This document shows, piece after piece, positions 42,545 through 55,338 of a stretch of 64,000 nt of DNA (position 1 is its first letter; the number at the start of each line of letters is the position of its first letter). Origin of the DNA: Chloroflexota bacterium. GTDB taxonomy: Bacteria > Chloroflexota > Anaerolineae > Promineifilales > Promineifilaceae. Below the pieces are notes generated by a model, which saw only the letters and a program-made list of their open reading frames with translations, searched no databases and was not told the DNA's origin. The stretch is from assembly GCA_018004935.1 (NCBI GenBank), contig JAGNBF010000001.1:62001-126000 (forward strand), read 5' to 3'. Both the position numbers and the translations under genes were made by a program.

Positions 42545-43579
42545 CTAATGAACGGTGGGCAATTGTTGCCCAAATGCCACGAGTGAGGGAGCGGTTAGGG
42601 CCAGTTTGTGCAGATAGGAGAGACGGTCTATGTCTGTTATTTGTTCCAGGTGAATAGTCAGGTGTGCTGAGGCTGGCCCAAAACGAACCTCTAGCGTATC
42701 CCGAATGGCGGAACGCAACCCTTGCTGAACCCCTTGTTGTAACCCTTGCTGAACCCCTTGTTGTAACCCTTGCTGAACCCCTTGTTGTAACCCTTGCTGA
42801 ACCCCTTGTTGTAACCCCTCTTCTCTTGCGATCCGTTCCACACTGGTAACATAAGGCATGTTATCTCTCTCCTCAAGACGGGTAATCTCCATCTTAAACT
42901 GCTGTGCCAGAGTCTGGGGTAAAGCCATTACCCAATCTATAAAGCGAAATAGCTCTAAAACTTCCTGCCGATTATAGCCGCGACGGTATAACAATCGCGC
43001 CAATGTCAGTTTGGCCGCGTATCGTTCATTCGGTTTGTGCCGGGTGGCCTGGGTTTGTAAGTGCGCCATTACCACAACCGCAAAGGGGTTGGTATTGTTG
43101 GCTAACGTCTCCCATTGTCCCTGATAGTCTAACAGTTTTACGATGGGAAAGTCCAGCGAAACCCGGCAACCAAATAGTTCATAACTAAAATGGGCAGGGC
43201 GCCATTGGGTTTGCTCATCTGTTAAAATCGCCAGGCTGGCGACGGGACGACGGTAACGATCAAAGACCCGATAATTGTAAACATACATACGCTCGTCAAA
43301 GCCGTCATCCCTTTGCCCCTGGATTTCAATATGGATGAGTACCCAGGCTTCTTGCCCATTTTGTAGATAAACGGAGACCAGTTTGTCCAGACGGCGCAGA
43401 CCCAGTTCTGCGTCCCGGACAACTTGCTGTAACTCCTGGTCTAGAAATTGATAACCCAGGGTCCAATCTATCTGGTGGTATGCCTGGGGGAAGAAAAAGG
43501 CGATAAATTGGGGAAAGAATTGCTCCAGCATCTCTTTCCAGGGTGAGTCTAAATCGAGGGGTGGCGTGTCGTTTAGCAT
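42545..43579 (-). CDS. Rpn/DUF4351-type PD-(D/E)XK nuclease with QQG repeat
   Basis: 344 aa. The N-terminal nuclease shows RRLDKLVSVYLQNGQEAWVL and IHIEIQGQRD (the D...E-x-Q core) with YNYRVFDRYRRPVASLAILTD. Residues ~255-290 are a tandem LQQGVQQG octapeptide coded by 24-bp DNA repeats (42715-42815). The C-terminus VRFGPASAHLTIHLEQITDI is the DUF4351-like tail. Rpn proteins are recombination-promoting nucleases/defence toxins whose C-terminal repeats vary in copy number. No GCGGCCGC lies in this gene. Confidence 0.85.
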   Translation of the reverse strand: MLNDTPPLDLDSPWKEMLEQFFPQFIAFFFPQAYHQIDWTLGYQFLDQELQQVVRDAELGLRRLDKLVSVYLQNGQEAWVLIHIEIQGQRDDGFDERMYVYNYRVFDRYRRPVASLAILTDEQTQWRPAHFSYELFGCRVSLDFPIVKLLDYQGQWETLANNTNPFAVVVMAHLQTQATRHKPNERYAAKLTLARLLYRRGYNRQEVLELFRFIDWVMALPQTLAQQFKMEITRLEERDNMPYVTSVERIAREEGLQQGVQQGLQQGVQQGLQQGVQQGLQQGVQQGLRSAIRDTLEVRFGPASAHLTIHLEQITDIDRLSYLHKLALTAPSLVAFGQQLPTVH

Positions 43580-52883: not shown

Positions 52884-53370
52884 GTTGCGGGTAGTATAAA
52901 TGATTCTTGGGCGTTTTGTCCAGAAGCAATTTCCTCAACCAGGAACCCCCATTCTCAATAGCCACTCTGCCGATTTTTGAACCATGCCCGCTTTTGTTTT
53001 TACGAACGGTAGAACAGCCTAATTGTTCATTAAATTTTTAATCGGGTAACGCCTTCATTGACCCCATCCCCCCTGCCGATTCCCGAGGGAAGGGGGTAAT
53101 TCCAATGGGGCATTTTTCGGGGCATTCGCCCCGAAAAATGCCCCTTAGAAAAGTTCCCTGCTCCTGGGGTGGGGTCAGGGGTGGGGGTGGCCTTGGATAA
53201 ACCCAACACGACGATAAAGGGAGACGGCGACAGGGCGAAAAAATGTCAGATTATGCCCTTTGACAGTATAACCCTCTCGAGGGCTGAGCTTGTCGAAGCC
53301 TCGTGTTGCCTGCGACAAGCTCAGGCAATGGCTTCGTAGCAACCGAAAAGTTCAGGATAACGCAAACAGG
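52884..53370. repeat. Intergenic region with hairpin element copy C (inverted) and two other repeats
   Basis: 53020-53190 is copy C, opposite to A and B (begins TTGTTCATTAAATTTTTAAT, hairpin 53107-53144). 53160-53265 is the inverted partner of 17105-17215. 53268-53340 is the CTCGAGGGCTGAGCTTGTCG element also found at 39250 and 63984. No gene is seen. Confidence 0.85.
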
Positions 53371-54580
53371 TATGACCAACAGATCCACACCGCCACTCTT
53401 TTCTATGGATAGCCGGGTGCAATTACGTCCATTATCGCAACAGATTGAAAATGGCGTCGCCATTATTGGTTATGGCGACCGTTTTTTAGAGTTACCGCTG
53501 GAGGGATTGCAGTTTATCACCTGGCTTAACCAGGGACTCTCCCTGGGTGAAGCACGACAACAGTTTGAAGCCCAATTTAACCCGTTCCCAGAAGCCGACC
53601 TGCTTGATGTGATGCAAGCCTTTCTCAAAAATGACTTTGTGGCCGCTGTAGATGGTCTGCCTCTCAATGCCTCTTCTGCACCCATTACCCAGACTCCATC
53701 TCGCATCCCCCAACATTGGGCCGAACGCCTCTGGTCAAAACCCGTCCTGATTGCCTGGATGCTCTTTGTTACCCCCGTTTCTCTCCTCTGGCTCTTCACC
53801 CCCGATTTATGGCCCCAACGCAGTGACTATTTCTGGCTCGATTTTTACTTCCTCATCATTCTGATTGGGCAATTGTTGTGGCTGGAAGATATGTCTACCC
53901 ATGAGGTGGCTCATTGGCTGGCGGCCAGGGCCAAAGGCATTCACGCCACCATTTCCTGGACGCAACGGTTGGGCGTCTTTCCCATGAGCCAGACAACGAT
54001 GCACAACATTTGGGCCGTGCCCCGGCAGGCGCGTTATTTGCCGCTGGCGGCGGGTATGGTGCTGGACATCGCCAAAGGGAGTGTAGTGCTGTACCTGCTT
54101 TTCCTGGATCGTTGGGGTTGGGTGCAGTTGCCTGCTCTGGCTCTGGCTTTTTTGCGCTACTACCTGCTCAAAAACACGTTGGCTCTGGTGGCTCAATTCT
54201 GGCTTTTTTCGCGCATGGATGGTTATTTTCTGCTGTCGGCGCTGTTGGGTCAGCGCAATTTGCAGGCGGATACGTTTACCTGGTTCAAGAGTAAATTCAA
54301 CCACTGGATTAAATTTGAGCCACCGGCCGGTGGCATGAAATTTGTGTACCTTTATGCGGTTATTTCAGTACTGGGGGGTGGTTTTGTGTTGAGCCAGTTT
54401 TTTCTTTATTCTGTGCCGATCCGGGTGCAGTTGATTTGGGATTCATGGCAGAAAGTGACCGCGGCCGCGCCCTCATCGCTCGATTATGCGGATGGGGTGG
54501 CGGCGTTGGTCAGCCAGGGGTTGTATGTGGGGCTGTTGGTGTATGCCCATTGGCGGGACCGGGCCAGTCGGCGGAAGTAG
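53371..54580 (+). CDS. M50-type membrane metalloprotease with N-terminal PqqD-like domain
   Basis: About 402 aa. Residues ~15-95 look like a PqqD-type RiPP-recognition domain (IENGVAIIGYGDRFLELPLE, then LGEARQQFEAQF and LKNDFVAAVDG). The membrane part contains HExxH as STHEVAHWLAA near 190 and the partner motif SRMDGYFLLSALLG near 290, the hallmarks of M50/peptide zinc metalloproteases, plus about six hydrophobic segments. Such fusions export or process ribosomal peptide natural products. Its likely substrates are the tiny peptides encoded 455 bp downstream. The start follows a GCAAACAGGT region; ATG 53407 is an alternative. Confidence 0.8.
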
Positions 54581-54701
54581 GGACGCGGGGATGGGGGACG
54601 CGGCGATCTTATTGCCCTTTCGCTCCCTCACCGTGTCTTTTTTGTGGGGAGAAGAGAGTGGGATACAATGCGGCCGCAAACCAGTTCGTCAGCCAATTCC
54701 A

Positions 54702-54807
54702 TGTAACTATTCAGGTGGCACTTTTGCCAGAGAGACCCTAAAGGTTTTGATTAACATGAGGCCAGAATCACCAGAGGTCAAAACCTTTAGGGTCTGAATA
54801 GTTACAA
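54702..54807. repeat. Nested palindrome, about 106 bp
   Basis: Outer arms TGTAACTATTCAG / CTGAATAGTTACA (54702-54714, 54795-54807) enclose perfect 17-bp arms GACCCTAAAGGTTTTGA / TCAAAACCTTTAGGGTC (54734-54750, 54778-54794). The outer arm occurs singly at 28738. A MITE-like or structured element. Confidence 0.8.
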
Positions 54808-54824
54808 TTCCATTAAATTAGGGT

Positions 54825-54935
54825 CTTCGGGATTTCGTGGGGTACGGGCAACCCTTGTGGTTGCCCCACACGGGGCAGGCACAAGGCCAGCCCGTACATC
54901 TTTGTTCACCCCCTGAATTCCCCAAGAGCCTTAAA
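54825..54935. repeat. About 105-bp intergenic repeat, inverted copy 2
   Basis: GGGATTTCGTGGGGTACGGG then CAACCCTTGTGGTTGCCCCA and CACAAGGCCAGCCCGTACAT; inverted relative to 23812 and 61950. Bordered by CCCCCTGAATTCCCC. Confidence 0.88.
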
Positions 54936-54965
54936 TTGTTATTTACCCTTTCTTGTTTGTCATTC

Positions 54966-54988
54966 CGGTATGAGGCCAACCCATACCG
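54966..54988. promoter_or_regulatory. Inverted repeat CGGTATG / CATACCG upstream of the peptide genes
   Basis: 7-bp arms separated by 9 bp, 47 bp before the first peptide start. Could be an operator or RNA hairpin. No convincing -10/-35 pair is seen. Confidence 0.4.
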
Positions 54989-55034
54989 TTAAAACTTACC
55001 CAGGTTTGTTCATCATTCTACAAGGAGGTGCCCC

Positions 55035-55091
55035 GTGAAAGTTAAACCAGTTGAAACAGTGCAACCCACCGCCCAATTAAGCAACATTTAG
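55035..55091 (+). CDS. 18-aa peptide gene 1 (MKVKPVETVQPTAQLSNI)
   Basis: GTG start with AAGGAGGTG 5-13 bases upstream, the strongest ribosome site in the region; stop TAG. It is first of three near-identical micro-ORFs. Differences among the three are confined to residues 5 and 13-17. Substitutions are mostly at third codon positions (GTT/GTC/GTG, CAA/CAA, ACA/ACC/ACT), which is expected for real coding selection. Function unknown: a ribosomal peptide precursor is the best guess, given the PqqD-M50 protease upstream. Confidence 0.75.
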   Translation: MKVKPVETVQPTAQLSNI

Positions 55092-55101
55092 GAGTTCCAT
55101 C

Positions 55102-55158
55102 GTGAAAGTCAAATCTGTCGAAACCGTCCAACCAACAGCCCAATTAGGCAGTATCTAG
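55102..55158 (+). CDS. 18-aa peptide gene 2 (MKVKSVETVQPTAQLGSI)
   Basis: GTG start. The TAG stop of gene 1 lies inside this gene's ribosome site (tAGGAGttccatc), so translation is coupled. Ten bases separate stop and start, the same as between genes 2 and 3. Confidence 0.75.
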   Translation: MKVKSVETVQPTAQLGSI

Positions 55159-55168
55159 GAGTTTCATC

Positions 55169-55225
55169 ATGAAAGTGAAAGAAGTCGAAACTGTCCAACC
55201 TACCGGCAAATTGAACAGTATTTAA
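55169..55225 (+). CDS. 18-aa peptide gene 3 (MKVKEVETVQPTGKLNSI)
   Basis: ATG start with tAGGAGtttcatc, again overlapping the stop of gene 2. TAA stop. Consensus of the set is MKVKxVETVQPTxxLxxI. The terminator begins 15 bp after the stop. Confidence 0.75.
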   Translation: MKVKEVETVQPTGKLNSI

Positions 55226-55239
55226 CCGTATTGTGGATC

Positions 55240-55280
55240 AAAAAACGCCTCGTTCTTTATCGAATGGGGCGTTTTTTATT
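55240..55280 (+). terminator. Rho-independent terminator of the peptide operon
   Basis: AAAAAACGCC (55240-55249) pairs with GGCGTTTTTT (55268-55277), with a loop that can pair further (TTC/GAA), followed by ATT. Directly after the third peptide stop. A separate CCTGACAG/CTGTCAGG hairpin at 55291-55330 lies between it and the PBP gene end and may terminate the latter. Confidence 0.9.
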
Positions 55281-55338
55281 CGGGTAGGAGAAGGGAAACC
55301 TGACAGATCTCAGAAGACCTGTCAGGTTTTTTTGATCC

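Follow-up and report, generated by a model that had tools for sequence, protein, structure and literature searches.

A fused RRE-M50 membrane protease and tandem micropeptide genes in Anaerolineae suggest a minimal precursor-processing system

The RRE-M50 protein and its micropeptide genes

In a 64,000-nucleotide stretch of a Chloroflexota bacterium genome (contig JAGNBF010000001.1, positions 62,001 to 126,000; hereafter the window), we analyzed a gene for a 402-residue protein (53372..54580, + strand; ATG at 53372, stop codon ending at 54580) and three micropeptide genes downstream of it. The protein is a PqqD-type RRE domain (RiPP recognition element; RiPP, ribosomally synthesized and post-translationally modified peptide), of the winged-helix type, fused to a SpoIVFB/RseP-like M50 membrane zinc metalloprotease. 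The three micro-genes are real and under purifying selection. Together, protease and micropeptide precursor probably constitute a minimal precursor-processing system that releases a short peptide tail.

Pfam and NCBIfam scans of the window protein alone returned no match, and its domain identity was therefore taken from relatives and from structure. A GTG at 53303 could extend the open reading frame (ORF), and homologue starts lie near the ATG at 53372. The full-length AlphaFold2 model, built from 25 homologues, had a mean predicted local distance difference test score (pLDDT) of 89.8. Foldseek with the whole model returned E-values that all exceeded 0.2, and the assignment was resolved through a domain-only model and VIA-align. 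The separate model of the N-terminal domain (pLDDT 90.2) matched TbiB1 and PqqD in Foldseek with a probability of 1.00. Residues ~14–97 (53411..53662, + strand) form three strands followed by three helices, a winged-helix fold that superposes on PqqD and lasso RREs, and RREs led the structural matches in VIA-align (residues 14–94; TbiB1 with leader, Z 9.0; TfuB1, 8.5; PqqD, 8.3; TigE, 8.2; ThcOx, 8.1). The domain-only profile also ranked TbiB1 first among PDB sequences (E 0.017); dihydrofolate reductase, obtained in the first PDB profile search (E 0.011), was set aside as a chance match on this basis. The Pfam PqqD profile gave weak matches in 6 of 17 family members (best E 0.0018) and none for the window protein at the curated cut-off, so that membership of the RRE/PqqD superfamily is supported by fold and not by sequence score; the fold outweighs the Pfam score here because the domain diverges fast. 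By analogy, the RRE domain would bind the leader of a precursor.

The remainder of the protein carries the motifs of an M50 protease. HEVAH, the zinc-binding and catalytic motif (residues 177–181; 53900..53914, + strand), sits in a predicted helix (residues 159–187 of the model) and is followed by a distal MDGYF motif at residues 282–286, an HExxH-in-helix plus distal Asp arrangement typical of M50. H177, E178, H181 and D283 were invariant across all 25 homologues. VIA-align of the membrane part gave Z values of 7.8 for SpoIVFB (128 residues), 7.7 for RseP (167 residues) and 5.9 for MjS2P; these are moderate for a helical protein, yet they fall in the correct family with the motifs in place, consistent with an M50 fold. 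A Chloroflexota homologue, L120 (L-numbers denote loci), scored above the Pfam M50 cut-off and also touched the PqqD profile. These results bear out the PqqD-like/M50 fusion proposed in a preliminary description, which had placed the first domain at residues 15–95.

The three micro-genes are tandem ORFs of 18 codons each with a 67-bp period, all on the + strand and each behind a strong ribosome-binding site: gene 1, MKVKPVETVQPTAQLSNI (55035..55091; GTG start, AAGGAGG site); gene 2, MKVKSVETVQPTAQLGSI (55102..55158; GTG start, AGGAG-type site); and gene 3, MKVKEVETVQPTGKLNSI (55169..55225; ATG start, AGGAG-type site). Their tails are AQLSNI, AQLGSI and GKLNSI. Over codons 2–13 of the three copies, the proportion of synonymous differences (pS) was 0.60 and that of nonsynonymous differences (pN) 0.09, with 3/4/17 differences at the first, second and third codon positions; 15 copies from nine genomes gave a pS of 0.72 and a pN of 0.20. 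Non-coding small ORFs would not give such low pN relative to pS, indicating that the micro-genes are not chance ORFs. An exact-pattern search of the 8-Mb genome found no further copy. Searched with one mismatch allowed, VETVQPT-encoding DNA matched in 22 of 56 genomes of the order, which we discounted as chance since control patterns matched equally and the reading contexts differed.

Co-occurrence of protease and peptide

Among 396 genomes of the class Anaerolineae, eight others carried close protease homologues (54–60% identical). The preliminary description had paired the protease with the peptide, and this pairing held in all nine genomes with a close homologue, the window's included; the peptide was adjacent in eight and on another contig in one. 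Micro-ORFs with MKVxxVExVxxT plus a tail lay directly downstream of the protease in seven of the eight other genomes. The seven loci encoded MKVRKVEKVKPTGVSRGNG; MKVRKIEKVKPTGARRSS; MKVRKVEKVKPTG(S/N)SWGG; two copies of MKAKKVEVVRPTGHKWGG together with MKVKKVEKIKASGWIWGGGG; MKVKRVESVKTTGFGYDG; MKVKKVEVVKPTGHGWNG with MKVKKVEKVKASGWIWGGGGG; and MKVRKVEVVKTTGYIYDG. In the eighth genome, G210, the peptide MKVRKVEVVKPTANPRR is on a separate contig from the protease; in G105 the protease is split across two contig ends and the peptide adjoins its C-terminal piece. The protease-peptide gap was 56–75 nt in five loci, and in L052 the protease stop codon shares 1 nt with the peptide start codon (TAATG).

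The micropeptides comprise 17–21 residues, with the conserved leader MKVxxVExVxxT and a variable tail of 5–8 residues. Conserved leader and variable core, the hallmark of RiPP precursors, were found in 16 copies from 10 genomes. The tails of the relatives include SSWGG, WIWGGGG, YIYDG and similar sequences, the final residue of the tails is I, G, S or R, and tandem copies with differing tails occur in L053 and L055. A degenerate middle copy in L055 (between 9622 and 9832) still reads SWSWGG in its final codons before a stop. A second micro-ORF type, MWRFKKQTKYNIWVWDG and MRFAKKQTERHNAWVWDG, was observed in L054 (5866, + strand) and L059 (3641, − strand), respectively; it lacks the VExV leader and ends like its neighbor (YDG/WDG).

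With a strict 38-base pattern, the peptide was found in 6 of 392 genomes (reversed control, 0), five of which carried the protease; it occurred in one of the ~385 genomes without it. The association was significant (Fisher's exact test, P = 1e-8), a value that overstates independence, since the genomes share ancestry and these same loci supplied the pattern.

Profile searches further revealed RRE-M50 relatives at 20–30% identity in Nostoc, Lysobacteraceae/Tahibacter, a Bacillota metagenome-assembled genome and many actinobacteria. Beside several distant homologues in Chloroflexota, Nostoc, Lysobacteraceae and an actinobacterium, the leader VETxxxTA recurred in longer precursors of 27–45 residues (e.g., MKKLTVRDVETLKTTAAFYGGDPCWPL, MKKFAIREVETVKTTAALYECRACFPDWFCDWIDMAA, a triple MKTVEATQPKTMKKFVIREVETLRTTAAAAYVCWICSSCW and a tandem MKKLAIRKVETLKTTAAFYAGGCGGPPRQIP), where homologous leaders bear tails of 14–30 residues. 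The window peptides (VETVQPTAQLSN) are closer to this long form (VETVKTTAALYS) than other short peptides are. Within Chloroflexota, the long-form pattern was confined to 4 of 301 genomes, all of one genus, and all 12 matches lay at the protease locus. Under the scan applied, most actinobacterial relatives (L073–L117) had no VETxxxT ORF within 1.5 kb upstream, and L076 alone supports the peptide link in that group. The long-form precursors tested matched no NCBIfam or Pfam family. Only peptide and RRE-M50 protein are constant across the distant loci, while other partners change. Most of L036, L058, L068, L069, L072 and L147 have a TPR or TPR-like protein of ~630–660 residues after the protease, and a C39-peptidase ABC exporter is present in L036 and L058; this distant precursor/M50/TPR cassette is apparently undescribed. 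The relatives L149, L151 and L152 have ThiF-type proteins beside them, which in the latter two carry a PqqD-like domain as a fusion, and L149 encodes the precursor MQKVTIQIRKLEKIETTGARHAQGAG; these loci possibly represent a separate RiPP class.

Gene neighborhood of the window locus

The protease and the first micro-gene are separated by 454 bp (54581–55034), close to the 455 bp first reported along with the three same-strand micro-genes. This gap is exceptional among the loci because it is inflated by two dispersed repeats. The first, a 103-bp inverted repeat resembling a miniature inverted-repeat transposable element (54703..54805; ends GTAACTATTCAG/CTGAATAGTTAC, flanking 8-bp direct repeat AATTCCAT; hairpin z −7.6), recurs in nearly identical form at ~20 other sites of the genome. 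The second (54821..54940; ~110–130 bp) has >20 copies that are 87–98% identical. Apart from these repeats, the 64-kb window contains 100 occurrences of the octamer GCGGCCGC, where base composition predicts ~1.8 (GCCGCGGC, 10; GGCGCGCC, 1); the octamer is a highly iterated palindrome, which we liken to HIP1 of cyanobacteria. Behind the micro-genes, a hairpin of the Rho-independent terminator type (55239..55278, + strand) was predicted by folding 55226–55285 (−25.1 kcal/mol, z −5.7; 0 of 200 shuffles equally stable). It was not listed by a consensus terminator scan; a comparable hairpin and T run follow the micro-genes in L050, L051 and L054. The micro-ORFs lie behind the protease gene and before this terminator, and attenuator leader peptides were set aside accordingly.

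The window neighbors encode a GlpD-like, FAD-dependent glycerol-phosphate-type oxidoreductase, a GntR/FadR regulator, a class A penicillin-binding protein and a kinase-AAA-TPR protein. In agreement with the preliminary description, which saw no radical SAM or cyclase gene nearby, a Pfam scan of ~10 kb on either side of the locus recognized no peptide-modifying enzyme, the neighbor at 42548–43579 being without assignment. No radical SAM epimerase was present among the window neighbors and no ORF with CxxxCxxC within 19 kb downstream of the micro-genes, nor was a modifying enzyme recognized among the ORFs inspected next to the remaining close homologues. The main reading further presumes that no enzyme from an unlinked site in the genome modifies the peptides. 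As no modification is evidenced, we do not call the peptides RiPPs in the strict sense.

Two further gene associations were observed, each in a part of the tree of close homologues. Orthologous membrane histidine kinases (46–68% identical, with a weak MASE9 match in two) closely follow the micropeptides in four genomes (L053, 7281–8861; L054, 6105–7691; L055, 10119–11602; L059, 1851–3395). A cyclase-AAA-TPR protein of ~1400 residues is convergent with the micropeptide gene in L050, L051, L145 and L157, including loci that the protease has left. Both associations are no more than hints at a receptor and may stem from inherited gene order.

Proposed processing and relation to known systems

The conserved leader, the variable tails, the occurrence of tandem copies and the fusion of RRE to M50 led us to propose leader-guided cleavage. 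Lasso and PQQ RREs bind leaders as an added beta-strand. The RRE domain of the window protein would likewise capture V6-E7-x-V9 of the leader, most likely by beta-strand addition, and the fused protease would then cut near the leader-tail junction at T12/[G/A]13. The tail of 5–8 residues would be released at or across the membrane, where it would probably act as a secreted effector or signal. Of the minimal recognition-cleavage system first suggested for this locus, both domains, the linked peptides and the lack of a recognized modifying enzyme nearby are now supported, while cleavage and signaling keep the standing of a proposal. Several observations weigh against it. The precursors lack a hydrophobic segment that could bring them to an intramembrane active site; the window tails lack the aromatic/Gly pattern of the relatives, so that tail fates may differ; and no dedicated exporter was found in the close-homologue loci, the C39 peptidase domains of the window genome being stand-alone open frames not fused to ABC. 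In addition, one genome (G265; 74% complete, of the genus of G210) carries the peptide without a protease detectable even by profile.

A wider version of the proposal would join the Anaerolineae loci to those in Cyanobacteria, Pseudomonadota, Actinomycetota and other Chloroflexota as one broad, undescribed signaling/effector family, with a VETxxxT-leader precursor, an RRE-M50 protein whose RRE serves cleavage alone, and a minimal form in Anaerolineae (precursors of 17–21 residues, unmodified messages of 5–8). We regard this extension as tentative. A comparably tentative refinement, compatible with precursor processing by the RRE-M50 protease, is that the tail is a pheromone of the SHP/Eep kind, read by the neighboring histidine kinase or TPR protein. 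The 17–21-residue precursor, active C-terminus and M50 protease fit SHP/Eep logic (PMC3150281), and the downstream kinases, the convergent cyclase-AAA-TPR proteins and the TPR proteins adjacent at distant loci would supply candidate receptors. However, the leader is charged, unlike the hydrophobic SHP signal, the loci do not all share one sensor, the window has none adjacent, and a terminator separates the peptide genes from the kinase.

Alternatively, the peptides might be true RiPPs whose modifying enzyme is encoded elsewhere, with the RRE-M50 protein performing the last step, leader removal, like MpaP for daptides or EpeP for epipeptides. The nearest named protease families serve RiPPs, distant relatives adjoin RRE-ThiF (L151, L152) or ThiF (L149), and aromatic/Gly tails such as WIWGGGG and YIYDG resemble substrates of crosslinking enzymes. 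Nevertheless, Pfam scans around the window and the ORFs examined beside close homologues revealed no modifying enzyme, gene contexts vary by genome while the peptide alone follows the protease, and the window tails (QLSNI) lack Cys, Trp and Tyr, which makes this explanation rather unlikely, at about one chance in four. That the micropeptide stays uncleaved and regulates the protease or serves it as an adaptor, for instance as an RRE ligand, is improbable: strong leader conservation and a surplus from tandem copies would also suit a ligand, but the leader is kept while tails vary, tandem copies differ in their tails as precursors would, and homologous leaders elsewhere bear much longer tails. 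Despite the 454-bp gap, it is very improbable that the micro-ORFs arose by chance or belong functionally to another gene, given the mobile repeats that inflate the gap, the linkage or co-occurrence seen in another eight genomes and selection on the reading frame.

Among known systems, the nearest named family is the daptide protease MpaP/DapP (NCBIfam NF041824), matched by 8 of 25 family members (best E 4.7e-11). The match of L120 spans residues 16–326, covering both RRE and protease parts, at 42.4 bits against a cut-off of 300. MpaP is an RRE-dependent intramembrane peptidase that removes the daptide leader (PMC10036551). The window protein itself does not match NF041824, no DapB, DapC, DapD or DapM was recognized beside close homologues, and the peptides do not end in Thr; on the best reading, the window system is related to this family and lies outside it. 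The epipeptide protease YydH/LiaK (EpeP; NF058609), an M50 protein maturing a small ribosomal peptide, was matched weakly by 3 of 25 family members (best E 0.0034). Epipeptide systems depend on a radical SAM epimerase, and their precursors are ~49 residues long; no such epimerase was recognized at the window locus.

Streptococcal SHP micro-genes have 22–23 codons, their activity resides in the last 8–9 residues, and the membrane metalloprotease Eep is of the S2P class (PMC3150281). SHP precursors are hydrophobic and have a dedicated Rgg receptor adjacent, whereas the window leader is charged and no Rgg-type neighbor is present. To our knowledge, Eep has not been described with an RRE. Lasso and PQQ RREs (TbiB1, TfuB1, PqqD) share the fold of the window domain (Z 8.3–9.0) but are stand-alone domains for cyclases or radical SAM enzymes, in contrast to the fusion to a protease seen here. 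Their leader motif is of the YxxP type (PMC12710340), and the window leader carries VExVxxT instead. The pearlin proteases TglG and TmoG are also membrane M50 enzymes; they work at the C-terminal end of a scaffold peptide (PMC10885120), releasing a single modified amino acid made by PEARL-dependent pathways, and no PEARL/LanB gene was recognized at the RRE-M50 loci. Traits that define daptides, epipeptides and SHP systems are missing from the window system, and we therefore place it as its own form of RRE-guided M50 processing. Text searches of open papers, with subscription literature outside their scope, found neither the VExVxxT leader motif nor a PqqD/M50/TPR RiPP pairing, and the best reading is that such a minimal system is undescribed so far. 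Micro-genes of this kind are easily overlooked, because the long-form precursors tested match no NCBIfam or Pfam family and the leader motif was not found in searchable literature.

Because the system comprises just two genes, the claim lends itself unusually well to testing. If it is true, a peptide-release system would be added to Chloroflexota. RREs are used to flag modified peptides; were a conserved RRE-protease to work on an 18-residue precursor with no modifying enzyme involved, it would mean that the RRE module can serve plain peptide release.
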